Below are positions 31,452 through 48,929 of a stretch of 64,000 bases of DNA, piece after piece. Below the pieces are notes generated by a model. It was not told the origin of the DNA, made no database searches, and saw only the letters and a list, made by a program, of their open reading frames with translations. How positions within the stretch are numbered: position 1 is the stretch's first letter; the number at the start of each line of letters is the position of its first letter. The stretch comes from Streptomyces sp. RFCAC02. GTDB taxonomy: Bacteria; Actinomycetota; Actinomycetes; Streptomycetales; Streptomycetaceae. The position numbers and the translations under genes are program-made. The DNA lies in assembly GCF_004193175.1 (NCBI RefSeq), contig NZ_SAUH01000001.1, positions 310,001 to 374,000 on the forward strand. Direction: 5' to 3'.

Positions 31452-31474
31452 ACCAGTCGATCATCCCGTTCCAC

Positions 31475-34400
31475 GGTCCACCCCCGCCCGCGCGGGGAGC
31501 ACTTGGCAACGCTCATGAGCTGGGCGTGCCGCCTCGGTCCACCCCCGCCTGCGCGGGGAGCACCGCTTGGGGTCCTGGTAGGTGCCGGCGCGTACCGGTC
31601 CACCCCCGCCTGCGCGGGGAGCACTGGCCCGAGTAGTCCGCGTCATATCCGCGTACCGGTCCACCCCCGCCTGCGCGGGGAGCACTTCGCGAAGTCGTAG
31701 CACTGGAGGCTCATCGACGGTCCACCCCCGCCTGCGCGGGGAGCACACCAGTGCGACGCGTCGCACGCCCCACCGCGCCGGTCCACCCCCGCCTGCGCGG
31801 GGAGCACGTCGTCGCGGTCCCGCCCCGGGCGTGCAGGAACGGTCCACCCCCGCCTGCGCGGGGAGCACACGAGCAACCCGCTCGACACGAACGTGGCCGC
31901 CGGTCCACCCCCGCCTGCGCGGGGAGCACGCCGAGAACGGCCACGAGCAGATCCAGGAGCGCGGTCCACCCCCGCCTGCGCGGGGAGCACCGGAAGGACA
32001 CCGTCATGACCGTCACCACCGGCGGTCCACCCCCGCCTGCGCGGGAAGCACATCGATCCCACCCCGTCGGCCATCTGCTCCGGCGGTCCACCCCCGCCTG
32101 CGCGGGGAGCACGGCGCTCCTCGGCGGGGCGCTGGGCGAGCAGTAGGTCCACCCCCGCCTGCGCGGGGAGCACCCCGCACCGCACCGCCAGCCGCTCACC
32201 CGGCACGGTCCACCCCCGCCTGCGCGGGGAGCACTTTCGTCATGACGAAACCCGGTCCGTCCGGCGCGGTCCACCCCCGCCTGCGCGGGGAGCACAGGAC
32301 CAGGGCGACGGGGACCAGGAGCACGCCCGGTCCACCCCCGCCTGCGCGGGGAGCACATCTGGCGGACAGACGGAATGCGGTCGCCGTCCGGTCCACCCCC
32401 GCCTGCGCGGGGAGCACCGCCGCAGGTTCCCAGTCCATTGGAGACCTCACGGTCCACCCCCGCCTGCGCGGGGAGCACTAGAAGAGCTCGATCTCGTCGA
32501 GCTCGCCCGGCGGTCCACCCCCGCCTGCGCGGGGAGCACTTCTTGGTGATGTTGACGTTAATCGCGCGCTGCGGTCCACCCCCGCCTGCGCGGGGAGCAC
32601 GGGCCACCCGACACCGACGACAAGCCCGTCGCCGGTCCACCCCCGCCTGCGCGGGGAGCACAGCGCGTCAGCGGCCGACGACCTGGACGCCATCGGTCCA
32701 CCCCCGCCTGCGCGGGGAGCACCCGGGCGTGCTGTATGCCGAGGCGCGGCATCGCGGTCCACCCCCGCCTGCGCGGGGAGCACCCGCTGAGACCGAGCCG
32801 TCCCATGCTCGCGTTCGGTCCACCCCCGCCTGCGCGGGGAGCACCGCGGACGCCGACGGTGTGCCGGGAGAAACGTCGGTCCACCCCCGCCTGCGCGGGG
32901 AGCACGGCGACCATTGCTTGGCCGCGCGGAACAGCTCCGGTCCACCCCCGCCTGCGCGGGGAGCACACCGCCGCCGGGTCCTGCGGGGACTGCGACGGCG
33001 GTCCACCCCCGCCTGCGCGGGGAGCACCAGTGTCCTCCGTGGCATCTCATCACGGGGGACGGTCCACCCCCGCCTGCGCGGGGAGCACGTGGCCGTCGGG
33101 GTAGAGGGCGGTCCAGCAGTTGGTCCACCCCCGCCTGCGCGGGGAGCACGTGGGCGCCGCCACAGCGGGCGGCAAGAGCCTCGGTCCACCCCCGCCTGCG
33201 CGGGGAGCACGTCGCCAGGAGGACCGCGAGCTGCGCGTCGAGCGGTCCACCCCCGCCTGCGCGGGGAGCACGACTCGGTGACCGACGCCGTGGTCGTGGT
33301 CGTCGGTCCACCCCCGCCTGCGCGGGGAGCACCACCGACCCACCGACGTCGCCGCCCGCTCGCCCGGTCCACCCCCGCCTGCGCGGGGAGCACACGGTCG
33401 GGCGGATCTGGACGATCGCCGCGTCTGGTCCACCCCCGCCTGCGCGGGGAGCACCGCGGCTTCGGCGGCCCGGCGCTCGGCGGCGGCGGTCCACCCCCGC
33501 CTGCGCGGGGAGCACAGTAGACCGATCTCGGGGCGGACGGCCCGGGGCGGTCCACCCCCGCCTGCGCGGGGAGCACGAGGGCACCACCTGGCAGGCCATC
33601 GGCCGCCTCGGTCCACCCCCGCCTGCGCGGGGAGCACATGACCGACCGCGACGCGGCCAAGGAAGTCCTCTGGTCCACCCCCGCCTGCGCGGGGAGCACG
33701 CCGCGCACGGCCGCTACGCCGAGGGCGTCAACGGTCCACCCCCGCCTGCGCGGGGAGCACATGCGTACCAGTTCCCGCATCAGGGAGAGCGGCGGTCCAC
33801 CCCCGCCTGCGCGGGGAGCACCCTCTCCCTCAACCTGCACGGCTACCGTACAGCGGTCCACCCCCGCCTGCGCGGGGAGCACCCCGTCCGTCCGTCCGTC
33901 CGGCCCGCGCGAGCCGGTCCACCCCCGCCTGCGCGGGGAGCACGGAACCGGGCTATGCCTCTGGTACGCGCGTCGCGGTCCACCCCCGCCTGCGCGGGGA
34001 GCACATGTCATTGACGGTTTCCATCGGGGACGGCGGCGGTCCACCCCCGCCTGCGCGGGGAGCACTCGTTGCCGTTGCTCTTCCTGATCCGCGCATACGG
34101 TCCACCCCCGCCTGCGCGGGGAGCACCGCGGGCGTGGTTCCGCTGCATGGCGTCCGACACGGTCCACCCCCGCCTGCGCGGGGAGCACGCCGCCGCACCG
34201 AGCGTCGTCCGCTGCTGCACCGGTCCACCCCCGCCTGCGCGGGGAGCACCGAGGTCTGCACCAGTCGAATAGTGCTCAGTGCGGTCCACCCCCGCCTGCG
34301 CGGGGAGCACCCGCGCGGGGGCTGGTCAAGCCCTCGGGGTGGCGGTCCACCCCCGCCTGCGCGGGGAGCACGTGCGGCGCCCCGGCCGGCCTCGGCCTCG

Positions 34401-34554
34401 GCGCGGTCCACCCCCGCCTGCGCGGGGAGCACACCGGATGGCTGGCTAGGGGTGTTGGGGTGGGCGGTCCACCCCCGCCTGCGCGGGGAGCACGCCACCT
34501 CGGCGAGGCGGTAGACCTTGATGGGCGGTCCACCCCCGCCTGCGCGGGGAGCAC
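31475..34554 (-). CRISPR. type I-E CRISPR array 1
   Basis: About 51 repeats and 50 spacers at a 61-bp period. On the minus strand the repeat reads GTGCTCCCCGCGCAGGCGGG followed by GGTGGACC, usually plus a G, with a CCCCGC/GCGGGG stem; spacers are about 32 nt. The repeat at the 31475 end is degenerate (CCCG for CCTG), marking it as the old end, so transcription runs leftward from the cas2 side. One internal repeat near 32030 has a G-to-A change. Only 18 bp separate it from cas2, so crRNAs may be cotranscribed with the cas operon. Confidence 0.97.
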
Positions 34555-34893: not shown

Positions 34894-35874
34894 TCAGTCC
34901 TTGTCGCCGTAGTTGATCCCGCCGCGGATGTTGCCGAGTTCGGGGTCCCATAGGTGGGTGAGTTCTTCGGTGGCTTCCTCGATGTCGTCGTCTGTGGGGC
35001 CTGTTCCGGGCTCGAGAAGGTTCTGGATGTCGGCGACGATGCGCGGCAGGAGCCGGAAAAGACGGAGATCTTCACGGAAGGAGCGGCGAGCGTCGCCCTC
35101 TGGATCGGTGGATGCATGAAGGGAGAAGGCCAAGGGAAGGGCGAGTCTCGCTTTGTACAGGTCGGCGATGTCGTAGACGAAGGCGTGGGACTTCCCGGTG
35201 TGAACGAAGCCGAGGCCCGGGGTGCACCCGATGGCGGTGATGGCCGCATGCGCGATGCCGTAGAGGCAGGTGTTCGCGGCCGAGAGTGCCTTGTTCACCG
35301 GGTCCTGGCTGTCCCAGTCCGCGGGGTCGTAGGAGCGTTTGAAGGGGCTGAGACCGTGTTGTCTGGCGAGCGTGCGGTACAGGGCTTTCATCCGTGTGCC
35401 TTCCAGGCCACGAAGTGTGCCCACGGTCGCGTCGGGAGGCGCGGTTTCCCCGAAGCGTCGCCGGTACATGCGGCGGGCGACCTCCGCGCGGGTGATGGGA
35501 TCGCCCCAGGCTCGGGCCTGGCTCTCCAGCCAGCGGGTGGGTTGTTCGTCAGGCACGGTGGCGCTGTAGCAGCGGACCGCTCCTGCCCCGGTGCAGATGA
35601 CGGTGGTGCGGTGGCGCGTGAGCGTGGTCAGGGCACGTGCCGTGATGGATGTGCCGGGACCGAGCAGGAGGGTGCTCAGTGCTGCCGTGGGCAAGGGGAT
35701 GCGTTGCTCGCCGTCGGAGGTGTCGATGACGGCATCGACGCCCGTGTCGTCCTGAACGATGCGGGCGATGTCGATGTAGAGGAACGAGAGGCTGTCGCCG
35801 ACGCGGGGCAGCATGGCGGCTGTCGGTTTGGCCAGGCGGCGACGTGCCTGGCCGCTGCCGGGTGCTGGAGTCAC
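34894..35874 (-). CDS. cas1e: CRISPR integrase Cas1 (type I-E)
   Basis: A 326-residue metal-dependent integrase for spacer acquisition. The family core is present: SFLYIDIARIVQDDTGV, LLLGPGTSITARAL, ALSAANTCLYGIAHAAI with the first acidic region, and GFVHTGKSHAFVYDIADLYK holding the metal-binding His and two Asp. The GTG start overlaps the cas6e stop (GTGA). The length is normal. The sequence gives no reason to think adaptation is broken. Confidence 0.96.
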   Translation of the reverse strand: MTPAPGSGQARRRLAKPTAAMLPRVGDSLSFLYIDIARIVQDDTGVDAVIDTSDGEQRIPLPTAALSTLLLGPGTSITARALTTLTRHRTTVICTGAGAVRCYSATVPDEQPTRWLESQARAWGDPITRAEVARRMYRRRFGETAPPDATVGTLRGLEGTRMKALYRTLARQHGLSPFKRSYDPADWDSQDPVNKALSAANTCLYGIAHAAITAIGCTPGLGFVHTGKSHAFVYDIADLYKARLALPLAFSLHASTDPEGDARRSFREDLRLFRLLPRIVADIQNLLEPGTGPTDDDIEEATEELTHLWDPELGNIRGGINYGDKD

Positions 35875-36521
35875 CGGGCCGGGAGGGCGCTCAGGAGCCC
35901 GCATCCGTAGGACTTGCCACGGCCGATTCCGTCGGTGATGGCGGTGCGGAGTGCGTCGGCGTCGGTGACGGCGGCGATCCCGTCGAAGCGTGTGCGGGCG
36001 TGGGTGATGCGGTGCTTGTCGCCACCGCGTGTGCCGGCGGCGTCGGCCAGTGCCATGCTCCGGACGGAGAGAAGGGTGAGGCCGGCCCGGGTGGCCTGAC
36101 GTTCCCACCACGCGTCGGCTTCGGCTCCGTGGAGCGGCTTCACCTGGAGCGGGCGTCCGTCCTGGGTATTCTTGCCGAGTTTTCGGGTGGCGTTGGCGAT
36201 CAGCCGGTAGTGGATGTGGTCGCCGGTGCGAAGCGCGTCGAGGAGCGGTACGAGGGATTTCGTCTGGGCGGCACCGTAGTTCTGCGGGAGGCGCTCCGCG
36301 GAAGGTGGGAGTCCGCTTTGGATGAGGACGGTTGGTTCTCGCCCGGACATCTCTTCGAGACGGAACAGGACCCGGGCCTGTTGCCTCGGATGTTCACCGA
36401 GGTCCTTGGGGAAGAGCGCCATCACGCGGTGGTGGAGGGCCACGGCGCTGCTGAGATCCTTACGCGCGGCCGGGTTGTCCACGTCGGGCACGAGCCGGGT
36501 GATCCACAAGGGTGTGCTCAT
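35871..36521 (-). CDS. cas6e: CRISPR RNA endonuclease Cas6e
   Basis: A 216-residue Cas6e (CasE) that cuts pre-crRNA at the base of the repeat hairpin and stays bound in Cascade. The N-terminal HHRVMALFP contains the candidate catalytic His. The C-terminal GIGRGKSYGCGLLSALP is the glycine-rich loop. Start and stop each overlap neighbours by 4 nt. The I-E arrays and the mini-CRISPR all keep the CCCCGC/GCGGGG stem this enzyme recognises. Confidence 0.95.
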   Translation of the reverse strand: MSTPLWITRLVPDVDNPAARKDLSSAVALHHRVMALFPKDLGEHPRQQARVLFRLEEMSGREPTVLIQSGLPPSAERLPQNYGAAQTKSLVPLLDALRTGDHIHYRLIANATRKLGKNTQDGRPLQVKPLHGAEADAWWERQATRAGLTLLSVRSMALADAAGTRGGDKHRITHARTRFDGIAAVTDADALRTAITDGIGRGKSYGCGLLSALPAR

Positions 36522-37378
36522 GGGAGGTCCTGAGGCGGGTTGGAGTCGAAGTAGGTGATCAGATGCTCGAGGTATGCGGTGCCGAGTCCCGCGCAGCGTG
36601 ATGCGGGGAGGTGAACGGTGGTGTGGTGGCGCTGTCTGGCTCGGTACCGGCGGTCGAGGGACGCGAAGGACAGCGGGTCGTCGTGAGCCTGGGTGACGCT
36701 GTCCTGCGGCGCGGGGAGCCAGTCCGGCTGGGGAGCTTCCTCGGTGACGGCGCGCAGAAGCGCGGCCAGTGGGGCGTCCGCTGTGTAGTCGACGGCCACC
36801 GTGTCAGTTCGCGCGGCGCCTTTGGCCTGACGACGGCGCGCCAGGGGCAGGTTGACCAGGTGGTGCAGGCTGTCGCGTGCGGTGCCGAGGAAGAAGGGTG
36901 CGCTCGGCGGGCAGGAGCGGCGTCCCAGGTAGGGCGGCCAGGTGGGGCGACGCAGAGCTGCGGCGCAGCGTCGCAACAGGTCCGTGTTGTCGCTGGTGAT
37001 GGCGGCGGTGAAGGCGGCGTCCTGGAGGTAGTAGCGGTGGGAGACCAGGGTGGAGGTGTCTCCGCTGCGGTGCTTTCCCTCGGCGGTGGCCACGGTGAGG
37101 TGGCGGGGCATGCCGCCGCCGACCGTGTGCAGGTCCCGCAGGAGCGTGCCGGGTCGGTCGGTTCGGACGGTGAAGCGCAGAGCGCTGAGTTCCGCGAGGC
37201 GGGCGTCGTCACGCCGGTAGCCGAGGGCGGAGGCGACCAGGCCGATGAGGCCGGAACGGGTGGGTGCTGCGGCGGTGTCGCGTTGGGCGGGGAAGCGCGA
37301 GATTTCGCCCCAGGACTGGAGTGGTCCGGACAGGTGCAGGAGGATTCCCGGCACCCCGTTCTCGTCGGAGGTGCTCAT
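36518..37378 (-). CDS. cas5e: Cascade subunit Cas5e
   Basis: A 286-residue Cas5e (CasD) that caps the 5' handle of the crRNA in Cascade. The diagnostic start is ILLHLSGPLQSWGEISRF; TRSGLIGLVASALGYRRDD and HTVGGGMPRHL follow. It is longer than E. coli CasD (224 residues), mostly through a C-terminal extension typical of actinobacterial versions. It overlaps cas7e and cas6e by 4 nt. Confidence 0.95.
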   Translation of the reverse strand: MSTSDENGVPGILLHLSGPLQSWGEISRFPAQRDTAAAPTRSGLIGLVASALGYRRDDARLAELSALRFTVRTDRPGTLLRDLHTVGGGMPRHLTVATAEGKHRSGDTSTLVSHRYYLQDAAFTAAITSDNTDLLRRCAAALRRPTWPPYLGRRSCPPSAPFFLGTARDSLHHLVNLPLARRRQAKGAARTDTVAVDYTADAPLAALLRAVTEEAPQPDWLPAPQDSVTQAHDDPLSFASLDRRYRARQRHHTTVHLPASRCAGLGTAYLEHLITYFDSNPPQDLP

Positions 37379-38550
37379 GCCGCCGTTTCCCCGGGATCGG
37401 TTCCGAGGGCGTGGTCGACGGCCTTCTTCACGAGTTGCCCGAAGGAGTCGACCTGCTCGCCCAGTGCCTTCGATGCCACGGTGTTGATGGCCGCGTGTGC
37501 CCGGAAGACGCGGTCTTCCGCGCCCAGGAGCCGCTCGACGGCGGCGGCGTACTCGGCGAGTCCGGTGATGGACGGGCCGATGTGGCCACCGTGTCGGGCG
37601 TCGGCGCGGACCGGCTGCTCGAAGGCGCTGGCGTAGGAGACCGGCCGGTCACGGCGGACCACGACGTGGGCGAAGTCGGGGACGGTGTGCGGAGCGGTGG
37701 AGTTCTTCTTTGCCTGGGGCAGGGAGAGCAACGCGGCGTCCAGGAACTCGCGGGACAGCTCGGCGGCGCTGTCCAGGTCGCCACCGATGTTGTGCAGGAG
37801 GTCTTCGAGGTCCAGGACGACGTAGCGGTAGAACGTGCCGGCGCTGTGTTCGGCGTGCCCCATGTGCGCGGAGCCCGTGGTGTCCTCCCAGCCGTGGGTG
37901 ACGTCGTCAACGGCGGAGAAGTAGTCGATCTCCACGTCGGTGCGGTGCGTGGTGAAGGCGTGGGCGACCTGAACCGCGCCGTCGACCTTGGCGTCGTCCA
38001 CCTGCGCGAGCATGCGGCCGAAGAGGTTGACGATGCCGTTGCGGGAGCGCAGGACGGCGTTCACCCGGTCACCGGGGATGATCGCGTCCTTGGCCTTGAT
38101 CTCCTTGGTGTCCTTCGCGGACTGGAGCGCGTCGCGGTACTCCTCGGCGAGGTCGGCGAGTTCAGCCACGGCGCTGTCCGGCACATAGACCATCGCGGTC
38201 GAGGTCCAGGGGTTCCGCTCGGGCTCCTTCTTCGGTGGGGTCACGCCCACACCGCTGCCCGCCATGACGTGTCGGCCGGCCCGGGTGGCCAAGTCGGCAG
38301 GCCAGGAGCGGTGTTCGATCAGGTGGCGCTGAATGAGCTCGGGGAGCCTGCGGGTGCGCAGGGAACGCTGCCCGATGCGCTCCTGGAGCCGGAGGCGGGC
38401 CGCCCGCTTCCAGGACTGGCTGCTGACACGTGTCCTGCTCGCGCCACCGAAGTCGACCAGTTTCACCGAGTTGGTGTCGTCGCGGTTCAGGTTGGCGTAA
38501 GGCACCGGCTGGAGGATATGGACCTCGATGAAGCGTCCAGGGATGCGCAT
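37375..38550 (-). CDS. cas7e: Cascade backbone subunit Cas7e
   Basis: A 391-residue Cas7e (CasC/Cse4) that polymerises along the crRNA and bends out every sixth base. Signature segments are FIEVHILQPVPYANLNRDD, VKLVDFGGASRTRVSSQSWKR, VQVAHAFTTHRTDVEIDYFS and AGTFYRYVVLDLEDL. The ATG at 38550 begins the family motif. A gap of 92 bp separates it from the cse2 stop, the only sizeable gap inside the operon; a weak internal promoter there is possible. Confidence 0.96.
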   Translation of the reverse strand: MRIPGRFIEVHILQPVPYANLNRDDTNSVKLVDFGGASRTRVSSQSWKRAARLRLQERIGQRSLRTRRLPELIQRHLIEHRSWPADLATRAGRHVMAGSGVGVTPPKKEPERNPWTSTAMVYVPDSAVAELADLAEEYRDALQSAKDTKEIKAKDAIIPGDRVNAVLRSRNGIVNLFGRMLAQVDDAKVDGAVQVAHAFTTHRTDVEIDYFSAVDDVTHGWEDTTGSAHMGHAEHSAGTFYRYVVLDLEDLLHNIGGDLDSAAELSREFLDAALLSLPQAKKNSTAPHTVPDFAHVVVRRDRPVSYASAFEQPVRADARHGGHIGPSITGLAEYAAAVERLLGAEDRVFRAHAAINTVASKALGEQVDSFGQLVKKAVDHALGTDPGETAA

Positions 38551-38642
38551 GGGGTGTCTCCTTTGACGAAGGTAATGGTGAGACGGACGCGTGCCGTGTC
38601 GTCCGTGTGTTGCCTGCGAGCACCGGTGGCCCGCGGTACGTG

Positions 38643-39323
38643 CTATGTGTCGGCCTGGTCCGCCGCCTCGGTGGCGGCCCGCTGCCGTTCGCGGTAATAG
38701 GACTGCATCCACCGGCGGCAGACACGGTCGCGGCGGCTGCCCCAGTCCCGCAGGTCACGGATGAGCTGGGGCCACTCGACGGCGTGCGGCCGGTCGGCGA
38801 TCAGGTCCACGAGGGCGGGCAGGTGCCGGTGGACACCGTCGACGCTCTGCTTGGCCAGGGCGTCCAGCCGGTCCTCGATGCCGCGTGCCCGCCGGGGATC
38901 ACGGTCGACTGCCTCAGCGAGGTTCGTGCCGAAGTTCCGGAACGTCGCGCCGGCGCCGGAATGATCAGCGGTCATGGCGCCGTCCTTCGCCTGAGAGGAA
39001 GTTTCGTTCTGCTCCACCGCTGCCGGGCGGGGCGGCGGCGGTCCGTCCTCGCGCGCCGCCGGGTCCAGGCTGGCCATCATGGCGGCGACGGCGTAGTAGG
39101 CCCGCTCCGAGTCGTCTCCACCGCGGTGCTCCTCCGGGATGAGGTCGGCGATGTACCGGTGCATGCGCGGGCACTGGTCGACGGGACGACGCTGCCCGCT
39201 GCGCAGGGCCGTCCGTGCTCCCGGATCGTTGTTGCACAACCAGCGGACCCGGGCGACGAACCCGTGGAGGGTGGGCTTGTTCTCCGTCTCGGCCTGCGCA
39301 GCGTCAGCGGCTGGGGCGTTCAT
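38643..39323 (-). CDS. cse2: Cascade small subunit Cse2/Cas11e
   Basis: A 226-residue helical Cse2 (CasB). FVARVRWLCNNDPGARTALRSG and CPRMHRYIADLIPEEH are the family blocks; the C-terminus has LPALVDLIADRP and RDWGSRRDRVCRRWMQSYYR. The ATG at 39323 follows CCAGGAGAGGCGC, a strong ribosome-binding site. The frame upstream of this ATG is open and encodes the C-terminal part of Cas8e without an intervening stop, so a Cas8e-Cse2 fusion could be made in addition to free Cse2. Confidence 0.92.
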   Translation of the reverse strand: MNAPAADAAQAETENKPTLHGFVARVRWLCNNDPGARTALRSGQRRPVDQCPRMHRYIADLIPEEHRGGDDSERAYYAVAAMMASLDPAAREDGPPPPRPAAVEQNETSSQAKDGAMTADHSGAGATFRNFGTNLAEAVDRDPRRARGIEDRLDALAKQSVDGVHRHLPALVDLIADRPHAVEWPQLIRDLRDWGSRRDRVCRRWMQSYYRERQRAATEAADQADT

Positions 39324-40873
39324 GCGCCTCTCCTGGTTCGTGTTCCGGCCGGAATCGGTGCGCCGGGGAATGGCCCGCACGCCTCCGTACAGTTCGAGGC
39401 GGGCTTGTTCGATGGCCTGCGTGGCGCGGCAGGTCAGGGGTGCTCGGGCGGTCACCTTGTCAAACACCTGGTGGGCGAGCCGGAGGAACGTCTGCCGTGC
39501 CTCGTCGAAGCGCTCTTCGCTCAGGATGTTCCAGAACGCTGTGCCGGCGGCCGGCCAGTAACGCGCTGCGGCGTCCTTGGACCACACGCATTCCTCGACC
39601 TTGCCGTCGGTGAGCGCGGCCCAGGCACGCTTGGCTGCGTATTCCACGCGGCGGCCATAGCGCTCGGCCGCCTCGCGCGTGTCACCGATCCGGCGGGCCG
39701 TGCCCAGTTTCCTGGCTTCGACGAGACTCAGCAGCGACGGGGTACTGGCAGAGACGTACTGCACGTCACGCGTCTGTCCGTCCTGCTCGAATCCCAGAGC
39801 ACGCAGCGTCAGACCGGGCGACTCCAGCATGTCGTCGCCGAGAACCTGGGGACGGCGCGGCTGGGCCGAACCGTTGGCCTTGGGCAGCAACAACGCATCG
39901 AGGTCCCGCCACAGTGCGCGACCGGAGTCAGCCGACCGTGGGTAGATGTTCCCCGCCTGGCTCGTCTGCCAGATCACGTAAGCGTCATCGGTGACGGGCG
40001 CCGGATAGCGCGTCCCCAGGTGATGTAGGCGTCGGTGACGTACTGTCCCGTCGCGTCCGGGACCAGGAGCAGGGCGTGCTGCCAGCCTCCGGTCAGCCGT
40101 GAACACGGCCCGTTGTACGCGGTCGGCTCTGCCAGCGCAGATGGCGCGGTTTCCCTCTCCCAGGGGCAGAGGTCATGAAGCGGGTCCTCCTCGACACCGG
40201 GCGGGGTGAGGCCGGCCAGCAGAGTGTGAAGCAGCGTGGGACCCTCGGGGTGGTAGGAGAGCGTTGAACGCAGCGGCCCGGCCCTGACGTCGGCCTTCGT
40301 GGTGTTTCCGATCGTGCGTGTGGAACATCTTCCGGAGGGGCCGTAGTAGAGCCAGATCAGCAGGTGAAGCGCGGCCTCGGCCGCGGGCACAGGGTGGGGA
40401 CTGGCGTCCTGGTGGTGACCGAACCAGGCGTGGTTGTTCCCCGCCGGACGCCCGAGAACCAGCTTGTTCACGCCAGCGGTCTTGGGGCACTCCTCACGCA
40501 GCCGCGGATCCTGAAGGAACGGCGACTCGCCGAAAAGGTCGAAACGTTCGCTGATTTCCGACGTGAAGTAGTCATCCACACTCCGGGGATCGATCCCCTT
40601 CTCCAGCACCTCCTCCCGACGGTCGCACCACTCGTCAGGGCCTTCCGGGGCATCGTCCAAGCCCGTGACCCGGGCGGTCAGCGCATACAGCACCCGGTAG
40701 AGAGCGGACAACGCCGGTGGCGGTCCGATCCGCAGACCCGCGATCTCGTTGGCGTGGACAAGCGCGGTCCGGATACCGACCGCAGATGGCTCCCGGTCCG
40801 GATCGGCCCACTCCACATCGATCCAGCCGGTCCCGAGGAGATCGAAACCAGGCGATCCAGCCGAGGGCAACAC
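39324..40873 (-). pseudogene. cas8e: cas8e (Cascade large subunit) split by a one-base frameshift
   Basis: The large subunit that reads the PAM. The 5' part (40873 to about 40018, 285 residues of family sequence: GFDLLGTGWIDVEW, ESPFLQDPRLREECPKTAGV, NHAWFGHHQD, WQHALLLVPDATGQYVTDAYITWG) is in one frame. That frame runs into a stop at 39974. The 3' part (TRYPAPVTDDAYVIWQTSQAGN, YPRSADSGRALWRDLDALLL and on) is in another frame. The two join at a G-run at 40014-40017 (CCCC on plus), where one missing G explains the break. Joined, they give about 517 residues, a normal Cas8e. The start is GTG 40873 or the next TTG, after GGAGG. A sequencing error or programmed slippage at the G-run are alternatives to real loss. 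Confidence 0.85.
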
Positions 40874-40912
40874 TGCCTCCAGAGACGTTTGACCAGTTCA
40901 CTAAACTGCGGA

Positions 40913-41002
40913 CACCTCCCCGCGACAGCGGGGGTGAGCCCGATCAGCCGCTCAGCAGCTCGATCACGGCCCGCAGATCCCCGCGCGAGCGGGGCGGCTC
41001 GA
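40913..41002 (+). CRISPR. degenerate mini-CRISPR (two repeats, one spacer), CreR/CreA-like guide candidate
   Basis: Two imperfect copies of the array-2 repeat stand exactly 61 bp apart: 40913-40941 (core TCCCCGCGACAGCGGGGGTG) and 40974-41002 (core TCCCCGCGCGAGCGGGG). The single spacer at 40942-40973 is 32 nt, the I-E length. The stem is intact, so Cas6e could process it. A -10-like TAAACT at 40902-40907 would start RNA at about 40914, at the first repeat. A 14-bp hairpin follows. The spacer's first 14 nt match 41052-41065 except at positions 6 and 12, next to AAG. It is antisense to the cas8e leader. Confidence 0.88.
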
Positions 41003-41031
41003 ACTCCCCCGGACCCAGGGGGAGTTCGAGC
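40997..41031. terminator. perfect 14-bp hairpin after the mini-CRISPR
   Basis: GCTCGAACTCCCCC and its exact complement around a 7-nt loop. On the plus strand it would end the mini-CRISPR RNA, as T-less hairpins do in Streptomyces. On the minus strand it starts at the predicted +1 of the cas8e mRNA and may fold in its leader. Confidence 0.7.
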
Positions 41032-41083
41032 TATCCGCACTATACCGGAAGGATCAACCGCTTAGGACACGAAGCCCACTAGG
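41032..41083 (-). promoter_or_regulatory. putative cas8e operon promoter overlapped by a Cascade target site
   Basis: On the minus strand TATAGT (41044-41039) fits a -10 box, with transcription starting near 41031 and a leader of about 160 nt before cas8e. On the plus strand, AAG at 41049-41051 is the classical I-E PAM. The next 14 bases, GATCAACCGCTTAG, match the mini-CRISPR spacer GATCAGCCGCTCAG. Cascade bound at 41052-41083 would cover about -20 to -52. The site also spans the cas3 stop codon. Confidence 0.7.
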
Positions 41084-43882
41084 TCCATACTGGACGCGCC
41101 CGGGCGCCAGCTCCCCGAGCCACTCGTCCGCTTGACGGCGCATGACCAGCGGCAGCCAGTCCCGCGTGCTGGCGTTTGCACGCCACGACTCAGGAACCGC
41201 GTCGTGCAGCTCCGGCCGGCCCCTGACCCAGCGCCCCGGAACAGGGATGACGAACCGCGCCAGAAGCTTCGCCATGTCCCGGTTCAGCCGCTTCTTCGCG
41301 CCCCACCCGGGGACCTCCAGGCTCCCGGCCTCGTCGAGCGTCCAGTGGCCGCTCCCCTGCTCGTAGACGCACACCACACGGGCCGAATCGGCACCCAGCC
41401 GAGTCGTCACCAGTTCCCGCCCGACAGGGGTCGACGCCGTACTCAGACGGTGCAGGTCAGTTCCGACGTCGGAGGGAGGTCTGATGTGCACCATGGCAGC
41501 GAGGTGCTTGTCGGCGGCCTCCTCAGCCAGCCTTTCCGCGTGCCATGCCTCGTGACGCTCCTGCTCAGCCCCCGCGGACAGACGAAGCGCGGAGAAACTG
41601 TGGTCGTAGACGGCGTCCACCAAGGTCTGGACATCTCCCGGCACCGCGACCGGCCGCCCCTCGTACTGGCGCAGCAGCGCGCTTGTGGCGTTCAGCAGAT
41701 CAGCGTGGTAGACGGCTCTCCAGGCTGCCGGGGGGTCGCACTTCCCGCTCGCATCCTCCGGGTCCAACACCACCACCGTGGGATCGGCCGGCATCCACGG
41801 AGGCCGACGGTCAGCGTGAGGATCAACCCCTGCCCTGTCGTCACGGTGCCGTACGCACCGTCCGGACCGCTGCAGCAACAGCGCCACAGGAGCCAAGTCG
41901 GTGATGATGAGATCGAAATCTAGATCGAACGACTGTTCGACAATCTGTGTCCCTACCAGAATCGCGCTTCGCGGACGCCGGCCGGCCTTGCCGAAGGCGC
42001 TCTCACACGCGGCTGTTCTCTTCGCGCGGTCGCCTGCTCGGAATCGCGCGTGCAGCAGATGCAACTCGGGCAACGACTCGGCTCCCCGTTCCCGTTCTTC
42101 GCCGAGCCACGTGTCCAGGAACTCCCACGTCTCCTGGGCCTCGGCAACCGTCGTGCAGATGACGAGCACACATCCGCCGCCGTCGACCACCGCGCGCAGT
42201 CGCTTCCTGATGACCGCCAGGCGGTGATCCGCGTGCGTCGTCTGCACACCCGTCCGCACCGGTTCCCGGACCAGCCGCAGACTCCTCGCGCGATCACTCT
42301 CGACGGCACGCGGTTCGCTGATCTCACCGCTGGCCCCGTCCGCGTAAACCCAGCCGGGATAGCAGGGCTCCCACCGCGCCGTCGCCCTCTCCCGGCCCTT
42401 CTTCGGACAACTTCCCTGGAGGTAGGCATCGACCAGCGACCGCGCGCTGGCGCCGGTGAGGGTGGCCGACAGCACGACGACCGGCACGCGCAGAGCGCCC
42501 AGCCACTTCAGCAGGACCAGCAGAAGTTCGTGCATCCAGGGGCCGTACGCATGCGCCTCATCAATGACCAAGGCTTTTCCGGACAGGCCGAGCAACCGCA
42601 GGACGTTGTAACGGACCGGGAGGACGCCAGTCAGTGCTTGATCGATGGTGAACACGCTCAGCGGTGCGAGCAGCCCACGGAGCGAGGTCTGCAGCCATCG
42701 GGAAGCCTCACCGGTCGCGATAATGCGCGACGCATCGATCGGCGCCTCGCCATCCGCGTCGGAGCTGAGCCAGGACATCCCGTGCACCCGTGTGAGAGCT
42801 GCCGTCCCCGCAAGACTGCGTTCGGCGAACCCGGCCACTCGCCGGTGCATCGCGTCGACAGTTGCCATGGTCGGCATCGCGAATCCCACACCGCCGAGCC
42901 CGCAGCGCCGAGCCATCAGCGAAGCCGACCACCACGCGGCCTCCGTCTTCCCGTCCCCCGGAGGCGCGGTCACCAGCAGCAGGCCCGCGCCATCGACCAG
43001 ACCGGGCAGATACTCGACCAGGGAGCTCTGCAAGGAGTTGGGCGCGAAGTCGAACATTTCACCGAAGTGCATGTCCTGGAATTGCGCACGTCCCAGCCCG
43101 GCCCGCTCCACGACCCCGGGAGCTTCACGCACCGCTGAGGACCAATGCTCCTCAAGGTCCTTCGACGACGCCGCCCGCCCTGGCGCCGGCATGCGCGGGA
43201 CGATGAACGACTCCTGACTAGCCAGCCAATCGGCCACGATCACGAGCCCGGCCAACAACACAGCCACCGAGGAGGAGATTGGTGCTTCAGGCGCAGACCG
43301 GGCGCCAGTCAGCCGCTGCAAGACCTCGACGTGAGCTCGGCACTGCTGCCTCCACTCGTCCCCGCTGCCCATCCCGAGCCGATGCAGTCGCGGTGCGACG
43401 AGTTCCTCGTTTGTCAACTTCGCCCAGAACCGACCATGATGGCCGCCGAGGAGCTGCCCGATCTGATGAGCAACGCTCTTCCGTGCCCGGTTGGAATGGG
43501 GATAACCGAAGTCCGCGAGCAACTCGGCCAGCACCCAGTGAGTCACTTCACTGTGGTGCAGCGGCATGCCACTCTCACCGGCGGCCGCCTCTCCGTAGCG
43601 CCCCGACGCCAGCAGCCGGTCGAACAGACTCCTCACCTTCACCTGGAAGGAAGGGCTGATCTTCCCGACATCGTGCAGCCCGGCCCAGAAACAGACCGCC
43701 GCACGCATCTCGGCCACCGAAAGTCTGATCTCAGCGGCAAGGCGCCCCCGGACCGCCTCGTCGAACCAGACATCCCACAAGGCTCCAGCAACGGCCGCCG
43801 TGTCGATCAGATGGCACACCACCGAGTACGGAGCCGGCAGACCGCTGTCCTTGCCCCACAAGCAACAATCGATCTCACACAC
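41054..43882 (-). CDS. cas3: CRISPR nuclease-helicase Cas3 (type I-E)
   Basis: A 942-residue Cas3 that is recruited by Cascade to unwind and degrade target DNA. The N-terminal HD nuclease domain has LHDVGKISPSFQ at about residue 75, with further His residues later. The SF2 helicase follows: TAPPGDGKTEAAWW (motif I), LVIDEAHAYGPWM (motif II, DEAH), VVVLSATLTG (motif III) and LLQRSGRCVRHRDD (motif VI). Full length and intact. The GTG start lies 217 bp from array 2, which is divergent. The stop lies in the region matched by the mini-CRISPR spacer. Confidence 0.95.
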   Translation of the reverse strand: MCEIDCCLWGKDSGLPAPYSVVCHLIDTAAVAGALWDVWFDEAVRGRLAAEIRLSVAEMRAAVCFWAGLHDVGKISPSFQVKVRSLFDRLLASGRYGEAAAGESGMPLHHSEVTHWVLAELLADFGYPHSNRARKSVAHQIGQLLGGHHGRFWAKLTNEELVAPRLHRLGMGSGDEWRQQCRAHVEVLQRLTGARSAPEAPISSSVAVLLAGLVIVADWLASQESFIVPRMPAPGRAASSKDLEEHWSSAVREAPGVVERAGLGRAQFQDMHFGEMFDFAPNSLQSSLVEYLPGLVDGAGLLLVTAPPGDGKTEAAWWSASLMARRCGLGGVGFAMPTMATVDAMHRRVAGFAERSLAGTAALTRVHGMSWLSSDADGEAPIDASRIIATGEASRWLQTSLRGLLAPLSVFTIDQALTGVLPVRYNVLRLLGLSGKALVIDEAHAYGPWMHELLLVLLKWLGALRVPVVVLSATLTGASARSLVDAYLQGSCPKKGRERATARWEPCYPGWVYADGASGEISEPRAVESDRARSLRLVREPVRTGVQTTHADHRLAVIRKRLRAVVDGGGCVLVICTTVAEAQETWEFLDTWLGEERERGAESLPELHLLHARFRAGDRAKRTAACESAFGKAGRRPRSAILVGTQIVEQSFDLDFDLIITDLAPVALLLQRSGRCVRHRDDRAGVDPHADRRPPWMPADPTVVVLDPEDASGKCDPPAAWRAVYHADLLNATSALLRQYEGRPVAVPGDVQTLVDAVYDHSFSALRLSAGAEQERHEAWHAERLAEEAADKHLAAMVHIRPPSDVGTDLHRLSTASTPVGRELVTTRLGADSARVVCVYEQGSGHWTLDEAGSLEVPGWGAKKRLNRDMAKLLARFVIPVPGRWVRGRPELHDAVPESWRANASTRDWLPLVMRRQADEWLGELAPGRVQYGPSGLRVLSG

Positions 43883-44099: not shown

Positions 44100-46276
44100 G
44101 TGTTCCCCGCGCGAGCGGGGGTGTGCCGCCGGAGAGGACCTCGCGACTGATCAGGCACTTGTGTTCCCCGCGCGAGCGGGGGTGTGCCGTCGCCCGACTT
44201 GTCCGCCCCGGCGGTGAACCCGTGTTCCCCGCGCGAGCGGGGGTGTGCCGGTACCTGATTGGTACCTGTCGTGTGGAGTGATGTGTTCCCCGCGCGAGCG
44301 GGGGTGTGCCGGGGAAACGCGGCCGGTGCTCCGCGGGCACCGCGTGTTCCCCGCGCGAGCGGGGGTGTGCCGATGTTCAGCGCGTCGGCAAGGGCCTCTT
44401 CGAAGTGTTCCCCGCGCGAGCGGGGGTGTGCCGATGCTGCGCACCCGCCGCGCCACGCCGTTCGGGTGTTCCCCGCGCGAGCGGGGGTGTGCCGACCTGG
44501 GCGCCCTGCTCGCCGTCGGCGCAGGTGTGTTCCCCGCGCGAGCGGGGGTGTGCCGCTGTTGGCGGAGAACACGCCGCCGCGCTGGCGGTGTTCCCCGCGC
44601 GAGCGGGGGTGTGCCCGGCGCCCCCGGAGTCCCGGAGGCGCCGTTCGAGTGTTCCCCGCGCGAGCGGGGGTGTGCCGGTACCTACGAACGACCTTGACCC
44701 AGGGGAACTGTGTTCCCCGCGCGAGCGGGGGTGTGCCGCGGACCGCGACCCGGCGGGCGCCGCGCCGCGCGTGTTCCCCGCGCGAGCGGGGGTGTGCCGC
44801 AGCTCGCCATCACCGCGTTCGTCGCGGCCTAGTGTTCCCCGCGCGAGCGGGGGTGTGCCGCTGGAGTCTCCGTCCGCGACGCCGGACGCCTAGTGTTCCC
44901 CGCGCGAGCGGGGGTGTGCCGCGAGCGGATGCCCGCAGTGGTGCAGCCCCATGGTGTTCCCCGCGCGAGCGGGGGTGTGCCGGATCTTGTGGACGATGCG
45001 GGCCACGTAGGTGGGTGTTCCCCGCGCGAGCGGGGGTGTGCCGAGAGGGCCGTGGGCGCGGTCGCCGAGGTAGGTGTGTTCCCCGCGCGAGCGGGGGTGT
45101 GCCGGCGAGCGCTTCGGGGTTGGTGCCAGCGCGGCGGTGTTCCCCGCGCGAGCGGGGGTGTGCCGCCGGACGGCGACCGCGACCTCAGCCAGCGCGAGTG
45201 TTCCCCGCGCGAGCGGGGGTGTGCCGCACCGCTTTTCGCCTTGCCGACATTCGGCGGAGTGTTCCCCGCGCGAGCGGGGGTGAGCCGCGCTCAGGAGGTG
45301 CGGGTTGAGCTCGGGCGAGGTGTTCCCCGCGCGAGCGGGGGTGTGCCTCAGGTAGGCAGCCGAGTGGCCGACGCGGGCGGGTGTTCCCCGCGCGAGCGGG
45401 GGTGTGCCGCCGCACAACACGGACTCCCGGAAATGGGATTCGTGTTCCCCACGCGAGCGGGGGTGTGCCGTCAGCCAGTGCTTCCAGCCGCTCCCACGGG
45501 ATGTGTTCCCCACGCGAGCGGGGGTGTGCCGTCAGCCAGTGCTTCCAGCCGCTCCCACGGGATGTGTTCCCCGCGCGAGCGGGGGTGTGCCGCGACCCGC
45601 TACCTCGACGCCGCCGAGCAGCTGGTGTTCCCCGCGCGAGCGGGGGTGTGCCGGGGTGTCAGGATTCCGGGGGCGCCGTGGTCTAGTGTTCCCCGCGCGA
45701 GCGGGGGTGTGCCGACCAGGACCACGGTCACGACCAGGGCCGCGCCGTGTTCCCCGCGCGAGCGGGGGTGTGCCGTCCTCGCCAGCGGTGACGCGGTACT
45801 CCCAGGTGTGTTCCCCGCGCGAGCGGGGGTGTGCCGCGCCTCGGGCCGGGGTGGGAGATGCCACGCGAGTGTTCCCCGCGCGAGCGGGGGTGTGCCGGGC
45901 ATGCGGGTGCTGCATCATGGCTCCTAGCTGTGTTCCCCGCGCGAGCGGGGGTGTGCCGGCGTGGCTGGGGCAGCCCCGGTTCCCCCGCATGTGTTCCCCG
46001 CATGTGTTCCCCGCGCGAGCGGGGGTGTGCCGCTCGCCAAGGAGCAGCGCAGGTCGGCCGCCCAGTGTTCCCCGCGCGAGCGGGGGTGTGCCGAACCCGC
46101 GACGAACGACGCCGTACACCGGCACGTGTTCCCCGCGCGAGCGGGGGTGTGCCGCCGGGATTGCCCGCGAGACGGGACTCAGCCGGGTGTTCCGCGCGCG
46201 AGCGGGGGTGTGCCGCGGTTGATCCAGGCGGCGCGGGACCCGGCCGCGTGTTCCCCGCGCGAGCGGGGGTGTGCCG
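44100..46276 (+). CRISPR. type I-E CRISPR array 2, cut at its far end by an IS
   Basis: About 36 repeats and 35 spacers. The 29-nt repeat begins GTGTTCCCCGCGCGAGCGGG and ends GGTGTGCCG; spacers are mostly 32 nt. The leader is at the 44100 side. Near the far end the repeats vary (CCGCGCG at 46187, CCACGCG at 45442 and 45503). One repeat-spacer unit is duplicated (spacers at 45471-45502 and 45532-45563 are identical). A 13-nt partial repeat is duplicated at 45991-46003. After the last repeat, 27 nt of spacer are followed directly by the ISL3 left end. Confidence 0.97.
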
Positions 46277-46303: not shown

Positions 46304-48059
46304 GGGCTCAGGCAAAAGTTCCGTGATGCGGTGACGTAGTGTCACTCGAGGAGGACTCATTTGCGGAGGAGGGGGAAGCTGGCCCGGCCGAACTTCTGCC
46401 GTTTGAGCATCTTGATCCGGTTGACTGTGCCTTCCACAGGCCCGGAGTTCCAGTGCGTGGTGAGTCCCGCCGTGACCGCGTTGAAGTCGCCTTTCAGGTG
46501 TTCGGCGAAGGTGCTGATGCCAGGCAGGCGGGAGCCGTCGGCGATCCACTCGGGCAGGCATTGGCCGTCGAGCGTGGCCAGCATCTCCGCGAACGAGCTG
46601 ATGAGCCGTGCCGCCGTCTCCAGCTCCGGGCATCGGGTGAGTACCGCCTTGCGATGCAGTTTGTCCTCTTCGGTGAGGGTGGCGGGGTGTCGGGTGAGCC
46701 ATCCGGTGACCTGCCGGATCGACGGTGGAACCGATGGAGGCGGGGCTCCTTCCAGGACTGGGAGTTCTCTGCGGGCCCACTCGACGAGGGTGGTGTAGCC
46801 GCCGCGGTAGCCGCGTTCGGCGATCTCGCCGTGCAGTTCCCGGAAGGTGATGCGGCCGTTCGTCTCGGCCCAGCGCATCCTCAGGTAAGAGCTGAACGGG
46901 TCGAGCTTGCTGGACCGTGGGCTGCGGCCCTTCACCATGTCCTGCCAGCGGGCGGCGCGGGCGTACCGCTGGACGGTGTGCCGGCCACAGCCCAGGTGCT
47001 GGGTGATCTCCCGGATGCCCAGGCCCTGCCCGATCAACTCGTGCACGAGCTCGTGATGACTGCGGGCACGCTCGGCGAACCGGCCGGACGGCTCGTCGCC
47101 CGTCGGTTCTGCCGGTGACTCCCATGCCGGCTCGGGCTCAGGGACCACCGGCGGCACGTCCTTCAGGCACAGCCGGTGGGCGGCGACGGCCTTCTCGGCC
47201 CCCACTGTGAGGTTGCGCCACAGGTGGTAGCGGTCGGCGACCTGCGTGGCCTGGGGTGCCGCGGTACTGGCCGCTTCGGCGTAGGCACCGGAACGGTCCC
47301 GGCAGACGACCTCGATCCCGGGGTGCCAGGCCAGCCACGGCGCCAGCGTGTCCGCGTCGCGCTCGGGCAGGAGATCGGGGACCTGGTGGGACACGGCGTC
47401 GATCACGACGGTGCCGTAGTTGTGTCCCTTGCGCAGGGCGAAGTCGCCCACGCCGACCGCCCGCGGCTCGCTCGACTGTGGGTCGGCCAGGTCCATCACC
47501 CGGCGAAGGAGCGTGCTGCGGCTGACGATGATCCCCATGAGCTTCGCGAGCCGGGCCCCGGCCCGACCGGCCAGCGCCAGGCCGATCGAGCCCATCGCCG
47601 ACCGCAGCCGCTCGGTGGCCTGCCCGAGCCGGCGCGTCAGCCCGGGCACCTGCTCGGCGAACGTCCGCCGCGGGCAGGACGGGAGAAGGCACCGAAACCG
47701 GCGGACACGCAAAGCCAGCACCGCGCGTCGCCCAGCACTGGGCAGATCCGCCGGAAACCGCAGGTAAAAGCTGTGGACCCGCTCCGACCAGTCCCCGCAG
47801 TCCGGACACACCGCACCCGTCGCCGTGCAACGGGCTTCGACGCGTATCGACTCGCCGACCGTCTCCACGGACACGATCGCCAAGCCGGCGACCGACGGGA
47901 ACAGCATCTCCTGCAACTGGGACAACACCTGGCTCACGGCGACCGAATGCCAGCCAGACCAGCCGATCGATGAGCGAAATCAAGGCGACTTCCGCACAGC
48001 CCGGAACACGGTCAACGACTACAACCTGTAGCCGCCGCACGGAACTTGTGCCAGAGCCC
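46304..48059 (-). mobile_element. ISL3-family insertion sequence
   Basis: A 1,756-bp element bounded by imperfect inverted repeats: GGGCTCAGGCAAAAGTTCCG at the left and GGGCTCTGGCACAAGTTCCG read inward at the right, 18 of 20 identical. It carries one transposase gene. The 8-bp flanks (GCTGTAGT left, AAAAGAGG right) are not a target duplication, so the present junctions did not arise by a simple insertion. Confidence 0.9.
46357..47937 (-). CDS. ISL3-family transposase
   Basis: A 526-residue transposase. The N-terminal zinc-finger-like part has CPDCGDWSERVHSFYLRFP. The DDE-type core begins at SSEPRAVGVGDFALRKGHNYG (first Asp); VADRYHLWRN gives a second conserved acidic region; THWNSGPVEGTVNRIKMLKR holds the last Glu. 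An inserted HTH (IREITQHLGCGRHTVQRYAR) is typical. Full length, so potentially active. It is transcribed toward array 2. Confidence 0.95.
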   Translation of the reverse strand: MSQVLSQLQEMLFPSVAGLAIVSVETVGESIRVEARCTATGAVCPDCGDWSERVHSFYLRFPADLPSAGRRAVLALRVRRFRCLLPSCPRRTFAEQVPGLTRRLGQATERLRSAMGSIGLALAGRAGARLAKLMGIIVSRSTLLRRVMDLADPQSSEPRAVGVGDFALRKGHNYGTVVIDAVSHQVPDLLPERDADTLAPWLAWHPGIEVVCRDRSGAYAEAASTAAPQATQVADRYHLWRNLTVGAEKAVAAHRLCLKDVPPVVPEPEPAWESPAEPTGDEPSGRFAERARSHHELVHELIGQGLGIREITQHLGCGRHTVQRYARAARWQDMVKGRSPRSSKLDPFSSYLRMRWAETNGRITFRELHGEIAERGYRGGYTTLVEWARRELPVLEGAPPPSVPPSIRQVTGWLTRHPATLTEEDKLHRKAVLTRCPELETAARLISSFAEMLATLDGQCLPEWIADGSRLPGISTFAEHLKGDFNAVTAGLTTHWNSGPVEGTVNRIKMLKRQKFGRASFPLLRK

Positions 48060-48079
48060 AAAAGAGGCCGTCCTAGACA

Positions 48080-48785
48080 CTTCATTGAGGTCGCCCCGGA
48101 GGGCGGGGATGGAACCCGTCGCCGCCGCGCGGTGCTCCTCGCCGAGGCCAAGGACCTTCAATGAGGCCGCCCCGGAGGGCGGGGGTGGAACCCCGCCGCG
48201 AGGTAGGGGATGTTGGGTGTCGACAGGGTCCTTCAATGAAGCCGCCCCGGAGGGCGGGGGTGCAACCTGTCCGTCCCGATGGACACCGCCGATGTCGACA
48301 ATTCCCTTCAATGAAGCCGCCCCGGAGGGCGGGGGTGCAACCAAGGACGCCACGGCTGACCGGGAGGCCGCCGCCCAGCCTTCAATGAAGCCGCCCCGGA
48401 GGGCGGGGGTGGAACCCCGGCCACCATCAGTGCCCGCTTCGGCCAGGGCGGGCCTTCAATGAAGCCGCCCCGGAGGGCGGCGGTGGAACTAGTTGTGCCA
48501 GGTGAGCCCGCCGAACCCGTAGCGGCTCCTTCAATGAAGCCGCCCCGGAGGGCGGGGGGTGGAACCTTCTGGGAGCTTCGCGGCCTCGGCCGGCACAAGG
48601 TCCTTCAATGAAGCCGCCCCGGAGGGCGGGGGTGGAACCAGACCTGCAGCCACTGCCGACATCACCGCCATGCCCCTTCAATGAAGCCGCCCCGGAGGGC
48701 GGGGGTGGAACACCTGTCCGCGCGTGCCGAGGGCCAGGCGCCACATCACCTTCAATGAAGCCGCCCCGGAGGGCGGGGGTGGAAC
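48080..48785 (-). CRISPR. type I-U (I-G) CRISPR array 3
   Basis: Ten 36-nt repeats and nine spacers of about 38 nt at a period near 74 bp. On the minus strand the repeat starts GTTCCACCCCCGCCCTCCGG and ends with CTTCATTGAAG. The repeats at 48080 and 48156 are the most diverged, so the old end is on the left and the leader on the right, next to csb2. One repeat (48529) has an extra G. Confidence 0.93.
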
Positions 48786-48929
48786 GGCGTCTGAGCTGGG
48801 GGTTTGGTGTTGCTGTGGTGTCGGTGACTTGGCAGGCGGGGAGCATGCCGGGTGATTTCCGGCATTTTGCTTCGGTGCGGTGCGGGGTTTCCGGGCATGC
48901 TTGTGGTTCCGAGGTTGGGTGGCGGTGTG
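48786..48929 (-). promoter_or_regulatory. leader of array 3
   Basis: 144 bp between csb2 and the array. A block at 48861-48919 (core GGCATGCTTGTGGTTCCGAG) is nearly identical to one at 57277-57335 next to array 4, and both lie about 75 bp from the last repeat. This defines a common leader for the two I-U arrays. Confidence 0.75.

Follow-up and report, generated by a model that had tools for sequence, protein, structure and literature searches.

A mini-CRISPR between cas3 and cas8e as a probable self-guided brake on type I-E Cascade in Streptomyces and related actinomycetes

A mini-CRISPR beside the cas genes of Streptomyces sp. RFCAC02

Between cas3 and cas8e of a type I-E operon in Streptomyces sp. 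RFCAC02 lies a unit of two degenerate repeats and one spacer, referred to here as creR, and the question it raises is whether such a unit is a leftover of a CRISPR array or a gene that serves the operon beside it. The operon was read in a 64,000-nt stretch of DNA (the window) and occupies the minus strand in the order cas3 (41054-43882, 942 aa), cas8e, cas11, cas7 (37375-38712, PF09344), cas5 (36518-37378, PF09704), cas6e (35871-36521, PF08798, the expected processing enzyme) and cas1e (34894-36111). The first part of cas8e (39974-40873, minus strand) covers positions 1-264 of the Cse1 profile, and the remainder (Cse1 255-430) shares a minus-strand frame at 38643-40106 with cas11 (Cse2). Two type I-E arrays belong to the same neighbourhood, one on the plus strand at 44100-46276 with the repeat GTGTTCCCCGCGCGAGCGGGGGTGTGCCG and one on the minus strand at 31474-34554 with the repeat GTGCTCCCCGCGCAGGCGGGGGTGGACCG. 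One unit of the plus-strand array (45930-46032, repeats at 45930 and 46004) measures 74 nt instead of 61. An ISL3-family transposase gene (46357-47937) lies between this array and a second kind of array within 48061-50633, whose repeats of about 37 nt are spaced 73-76 nt and which adjoins a type I-G Csb2 gene (48930-50633).

The creR unit is read on the plus strand, antisense to the cas operon. Its first repeat, R1 (40913-40941, stem 40918-40923 / 40928-40933), ends in the 5' handle GTGAGCCC (40934-40941); the 32-nt guide spacer follows (40942-40973), and then the second repeat, R2 (40974-41002, stem-loop 40979-40994). The two repeats are spaced 61 nt apart and retain intact Cas6e-type stems. 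Compared with the plus-strand array repeat, the stem-loop of R2 is identical at 16/16 positions and that of R1 at 14/16, with both differences in the loop, while over the full length identity is 21/29 for R1 and 20/29 for R2, the edges being degenerate. R1 and R2 agree with each other at 19/29 positions, short of the near-identity of ordinary type I-E array repeats. When both strands of the window were searched for perfect GC-rich hairpin pairs 61 nt apart, R1/R2 was the only one outside the two type I-E arrays, the corresponding minus-strand match being the same stems read on the opposite strand. R2 lacks a usable 3' handle, since its final 6 nt form part of the left arm of a perfect 14-bp hairpin immediately downstream (40997-41031, plus strand, arms 40997-41010 / 41018-41031). 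This hairpin is possibly the end of the guide-RNA transcript; viewed on the minus strand, it stands at the start of the predicted cas8e leader. Such a hairpin after R2 is not general, a stem of at least 10 being found in 10/41 relatives' loci (0.24% of shuffles). The preliminary description of this DNA, made from its letters alone, had pointed to two degenerate I-E repeats 61 bp apart with a 32-nt spacer and to the perfect hairpin behind them, and both are present. An Rfam search of 40700-41300 at E up to 1 found no family. Processing of type I-E crRNAs yields an 8-nt 5' handle, the spacer and a 21-nt 3' repeat part, and by this rule the mature CreR is predicted to be a 61-nt RNA spanning 40934-40994 on the plus strand.

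The spacer matches a site a short distance downstream. An AAG PAM (41049-41051, plus strand) precedes a target at 41052-41083 on the plus strand, of which 41052-41067 is the pairing part, and the target overlaps the stop codon of cas3. Spacer and target agree at positions 1-5, 7-11, 13, 14 and 16 and are mismatched at 6, 12 and 15; positions 6 and 12 are those flipped out when type I-E Cascade pairs with its target. With these two set aside, 13 of the 14 remaining positions up to 16 match, compared with 4 in positions 17-32. Both the AAG and a match over the first 14 nt save positions 6 and 12 had been claimed beforehand and are borne out, and the decay proposed after position 14 in fact sets in slightly later, since position 16 matches too. 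Scored over positions 1-5 and 7-11, a full 10/10 at an AAG site in the 750-nt neighbourhood (either strand) was reached by one of 19,758 random 32-mers from the window, and the best of the window's 86 array spacers scored 8 at AAG sites of that neighbourhood. The target pattern AAGGATCANCCGCTNAG has a single occurrence in the 6.1-Mb genome.

Two promoter-like boxes flank the unit. TAAACT (40902-40907, plus strand) is a putative -10 of the guide-RNA gene by resemblance only, and in 10/41 relatives CACAAT stands near the equivalent place. TATAGT (41044-41039, minus strand) is a -10-like box for cas8e that begins 4 nt past the PAM on the cas8e strand. Both boxes had been proposed as -10 elements, the second as overlapping the match. 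They are where they were said to be; their assignment as promoters is weaker, as no sigma-70-type pair was found in 40750-41250 for either the guide-RNA gene or cas8e. The cas8e promoter at the target is a predicted one.

The state of cas8e bears on whether creR still acts in this strain. Its reading frame changes near 39995-40010, Cse1 homology is spread over the two frames, and tblastn with the Cas8e of three relatives shifts frame at the same place, so that the gene appears to be frame-broken in Streptomyces sp. RFCAC02; barring an assembly error, Cascade from this locus may no longer function in the strain. There is accordingly some chance, which we rate as a minority possibility to be taken seriously, that creR once worked in the lineage and is now a relic at a locus that makes no Cascade. 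Weighing against decay, 13 of the 14 pairing positions still agree between spacer and target, and neither stem is disrupted; the break itself may be an assembly error or a real loss, and if real it may be recent. The genome also has a second type I-E cas3 locus (L037, G000:C1:1368815-1370700), which carries its own creR-like element with a different seed, GTGAACAATCG, and a target match of 11/11.

Guide and target in related cas3 loci

If creR guides Cascade to its own operon, its spacer and target should be kept as a pair in relatives. Cas3 loci were fetched with the window's Cas3 from genus, order and class (392, 293 and 394 genomes in overlapping sets, each yielding up to 30 loci), to which were added 40 stretches taken by place and the best 79 of 280 relatives found through an alignment of 13 Cas3 proteins, the latter 79 loci being those from named genomes. 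Fetched loci L058, L060-L063, L066, L075, L076 and L112 were left out before counting, as were array-like candidates whose R1 and R2 were identical at 27 or more of 29 positions. From 190 regions, removal of 2 under 350 nt (leaving 188) and of 24 duplicates gave 164 distinct cas3-downstream regions, nearly all actinomycete. A first scan over whole loci was dropped because it mixed true elements with chance matches of 8/10, and the search was restricted to the stretch downstream of cas3; a fixed-geometry version, in which 41 of 73 antisense candidates reached at least 9, was replaced since it missed repeats with shifted stems. The final scan sought a stem followed by a GTGNNCC-type handle, together with an AAG site no further than 600 nt away on that strand, and scored positions 1-5 and 7-11.

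Elements scoring 9-10/10 at an AAG site were found in 58 of the 164 regions and fall into 37 seed groups; since descent links some of these groups, the 58 do not represent as many independent origins. Outside arrays, 73 candidates antisense to cas3 had a second hairpin, 55 of them scoring at least 9 and 59 at least 8, while none of 18 sense-strand candidates scored 9 and one scored 8. Three of the 58 elements have no second hairpin (L073, L161 from Actinacidiphila and L183 from Planomonospora). Carriers make up 56 of the 130 regions with cas8e detected downstream and 34 of the 77 named regions, the latter in Streptomyces, Kitasatospora, Actinacidiphila, Actinomadura, Thermomonospora, Planomonospora, Nocardiopsis, Murinocardiopsis, Nocardia and Catenulispora. 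The other 74 cas8e-bearing regions, including Thermobifida fusca (L158), gave no element at 9 or above; some of the scan's negatives are misses, L013 and L136 carrying an element by eye, and other regions look truly without one. The loci nearest to the window by Cas3 sequence, L077 (56% identity) and L128 (54%), have short gaps and no element. On plasmids, ten of 208 records with a Cas3 match were examined, none of them among the 164 regions; five carry an element scoring at least 9, and the five without it are four from S. anulatus and one from S. cyaneofuscatus.

L130 (Actinocorallia) has a lone repeat-like hairpin and handle beside the end of cas3, with no second repeat seen by eye. In four creR-less loci a palindrome, AGTGATC-N10-GATCACT, lies beside the cas3 stop, perfect in L009 and L015 and imperfect in L008 and L018; it is perhaps a protein operator in place of a guide.

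The spacers follow their own targets. In a swap control with one locus per seed group (37 groups, members of a group differing at no more than 3/10 positions), 1 of 1332 exchanged spacer-region pairs scored 9; one locus per group was used since swaps that included loci with related seeds gave 20/1640 at 9 or above. When full 10/10 matches were sought without regard to the PAM, 33 were found and all 33 had AAG. The target lay on the creR strand in 41/41 cases of the fixed-geometry scan, in which both strands were searched, and against AAG sites of the other strand the best score among the 73 antisense candidates of the final scan was 7, none reaching 8. A PAM-free search allowing 9/10 is less telling: in the fixed-geometry scan 46 candidates matched, 39 of them with AAG, and PAM-free swaps reached at least 9 in 109/615 (97 at 9, 12 at 10), so the evidence rests on the PAM and on full matches. 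Mirrored changes (264/358 spacer differences over 92 pairs) were set aside as proof, the elements having been chosen for matching and the pairs being non-independent. Seed and target therefore vary together in relatives, as the preliminary description required, rather than drifting apart.

This pattern leaves little room for a plain CRISPR remnant whose self match arose by chance or accident. The degenerate repeats and the presence of only one element in the window are what such a leftover would look like, but 37 seed groups keep their own match against 1/1332 swaps, AAG stands before 33 of 33 full matches, and the window's creR spacer found no counterpart in a phage or plasmid collection at E 0.01, a threshold that is strict for a query of only 32 nt. 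We consider this explanation exceedingly improbable.

The pairs also record how far pairing is maintained. A leave-one-out profile scored each position in elements chosen by the other pairing positions and the AAG (58-60 elements per position); positions 6 and 12-32 had no part in choosing elements. Positions 1-5 match in 97, 95, 97, 98 and 93% of elements and positions 7-11 in 98, 98, 82, 88 and 88%, while position 6 falls to 26% and position 12 to 29%. Positions 13-17 match in 81, 86, 64, 67 and 43%, and positions 18-32 lie at 17-38%, with about 25% expected from base composition. Position 18 is at background (21%), which makes a third flipped base indistinguishable from the end of pairing.

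Layouts of target, promoter-like boxes and small ORFs

The 58 loci show two layouts. In class A (46 loci, the window's type) creR lies between the target and cas8e, and in class B (12 loci) between cas3 and the target. The target is upstream of cas8e by 72-464 nt in 44/46 class A loci, the outliers being one distance of 580 and a negative value for L014 that stems from a wrong start estimate, and by 48-156 nt in 10/12 class B loci, the stretch examined for the other two (L168 and L045) having given no cas8e. In 23 of the 46 class A loci the PAM is followed, 2-7 nt on, by the start of a TANNNT box, against a mean of 2.2/46 in control windows further on; the box is absent from this place in the other half of class A and from all 11 class B loci scanned. 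In several class B loci a GTGCTCTACTGGT-like block lies about 30 nt further on.

The class A layout raises the prospect of a further role for this DNA, as a structured leader of cas8e or as an antisense RNA. A precursor of CreR would be complementary to the 5' UTR predicted for cas8e, creR is antisense between target and cas8e in 46/58 loci, and the region 40908-41038 folds strongly (z -6.46) with a stem pair readable on both strands, so that the leader might be cleaved by Cas6e at the mirror-image stems. On the leader strand, however, a search for a handle behind the stems came up empty, and the 12 loci with creR on the other side keep the guide-target match, so antisense overlap is not what is conserved. 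An additional role of this kind strikes us as distinctly unlikely.

Class B brings to mind the CRISPR-regulated toxin-antitoxin systems (CreTA or CrePA), in which a guide of the same kind represses a toxin and not the cas genes. Seven of the 12 class B loci have a small hydrophobic ORF on the creR strand between target and creR (L167, with ...PWVLVVAVIVIVIGMRPDPATVGSCSALLLGAAEAYRRL..., L168, L171, L174, L178, L092 and L045). Thirteen homologues were found for the L178 peptide, and four class B peptides gave no Pfam family above cutoff; the ORF is a possible CRISPR-repressed membrane peptide. In the window, by contrast, the stretch between target and cas8e is occupied by creR itself and holds no separate small ORF, since every overlapping ORF of 20 aa or more is a long frame that either traverses creR or continues into cas8e (a toxin RNA lacking an ORF would escape this search), and the target is still upstream of cas8e in the class B loci that lack the small ORF. 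A toxin as the repressed gene in place of the cas genes is, in our estimate, very improbable. A combined view is that the type I-E self-guides of actinomycetes form a widespread, fast-changing family that pairs just under the Cas3 threshold, and that the class B guide both throttles Cascade and silences a membrane peptide released on its loss, an autorepressor and an addiction module in one. It draws on class B, where the target is flanked on one side by cas8e and on the other by a putative gene for a small conserved membrane peptide that runs on the creR strand, and we regard it as speculative and rather unlikely.

A proposed brake on the supply of Cascade

The anatomy of creR, its match to the target and the co-variation of the two within the limits that type I-E Cascade sets on PAM and pairing are established here. 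The AAG PAM, a match that ignores positions 6 and 12 and is lost beyond 17, and the -10-like boxes of class A all fit Cascade-guided repression of the cas8e promoter, and we conclude from the sequences that creR is very probably a CreR-type gene that would autorepress the cas8e operon through self-guided Cascade. The preliminary description had arrived at an autorepressive crRNA-like regulator, and the co-variation, the PAM, the pairing profile and the -10-like boxes in relatives lend that proposal support. The steps from transcription to repression and its release are inferred. In the mechanism we propose, the creR transcript would be cut by Cas6e at R1 and R2 to give a 61-nt crRNA-like guide, which the Cascade encoded at this locus would take up. 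So loaded, Cascade would occupy the AAG-flanked site (41049-41067) within the minus-strand promoter predicted for cas8e and, by promoter occlusion, keep RNA polymerase off cas8e and the genes behind it. Pairing over about 16 nt would be too short for activation of Cas3, so the host DNA would stay uncut. Repression would relax whenever Cascade runs short or ordinary crRNAs occupy it.

Work on E. coli Cascade gives these lengths their meaning. It is reported to bind in vivo where an AAG PAM is joined to a seed match that can be as short as 5 nucleotides; pairing of at most 18 bp suffices for the highest affinity, and longer pairing, beyond 18 bp, is required for interference and priming (PMC5904413). 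Every sixth base of the pairing is flipped out or unpaired (PMC5904413; PMC12871591). The natural pairs, which end at 16-17, should therefore lie where binding is near its best and Cas3 is not yet active. The window's site resembles the off-target sites of E. coli Cascade, where seed and AAG give binding without interference and position 6 counts little, and differs from them in being conserved and placed at a predicted promoter; the E. coli account describes no effect of off-target binding on transcription and treats repression by targeted promoter binding as known (PMC5904413). The type I-E system of S. avermitilis has AAG as its PAM and a cas3 that stands apart from the cse1-cas2 operon (PMC4762764). 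By analogy, the brake should act on the supply of Cascade rather than on Cas3, with cas3 probably outside the repressed unit.

RNAs of this kind are known. CreR, the cas-regulating RNA of Liu et al. 2023 (Cell Host Microbe 31:1481, as cited in PMC13131331, PMC12948488 and PMC12737573), is described as a mini-CRISPR regulatory RNA (PMC12948488; PMC12737573), and autorepression by CreRs through partial promoter complementarity is summarized for types I-B, I-E and V-A (PMC13131331). Like these, creR would yield a crRNA-like RNA from a mini-CRISPR with partial complementarity to a cas promoter, and the outcome proposed here is likewise autorepression. A CreR is expected to have degenerate repeats outside arrays and beside cas genes, as R1 and R2 are, and a spacer partly complementary to a cas promoter beside a proper PAM, as the creR spacer is to the predicted one; to these we added that guide and target be kept as a pair in relatives, which the survey found. 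The RNA of a CreR is further expected to be processed by Cas6 and bound by Cascade, for which creR has the stems and the handle, and its repression of cas transcription to be lifted by abundant crRNAs or by anti-CRISPR proteins. The creR element departs from the CreR outlined in those sources in lying mostly antisense between the predicted cas8e promoter and cas8e, with cas3 probably outside the repressed unit. With CreA of the haloarchaeal type I-B CreTA it shares degenerate ectopic repeats, a partially matching crRNA-like guide and Cascade-based repression, whereas CreA, as there described, represses a toxin RNA (PMC9458426) and the match here is at the predicted cas8e promoter with no toxin evident in the window. 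The long-form tracrRNA of type II systems is likewise a CRISPR-derived RNA that directs its effector to a cas promoter through a short match, with Cas9 and tracrRNA in place of Cascade and a crRNA-like guide (PMC8730458). In the open-licence literature we found no paper on a Streptomyces CreR, and the one paper with both words treats CreR generally (PMC12948488). Since CreR autorepression is already in print for type I-E, creR belongs to a known kind, and what the present work adds is the clade-wide co-variation and the pairing footprint.

In summary, dozens of related loci keep this arrangement with different but matching sequences, which makes a built-in brake on the CRISPR system very likely. 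Read together, the 58 natural guide-target pairs resemble a footprint that evolution has left of Cascade pairing, with positions 6 and 12 ignored and matching kept to about position 11 and fading by 17, and as a naturally occurring series they lend themselves to the question of what R-loop length is tolerated before Cas3 becomes active. The creR gene offers a concrete answer to how the type I-E cas genes of Streptomyces are held back, and it points to one site at which an alteration should increase the amount of Cascade in actinomycete hosts.
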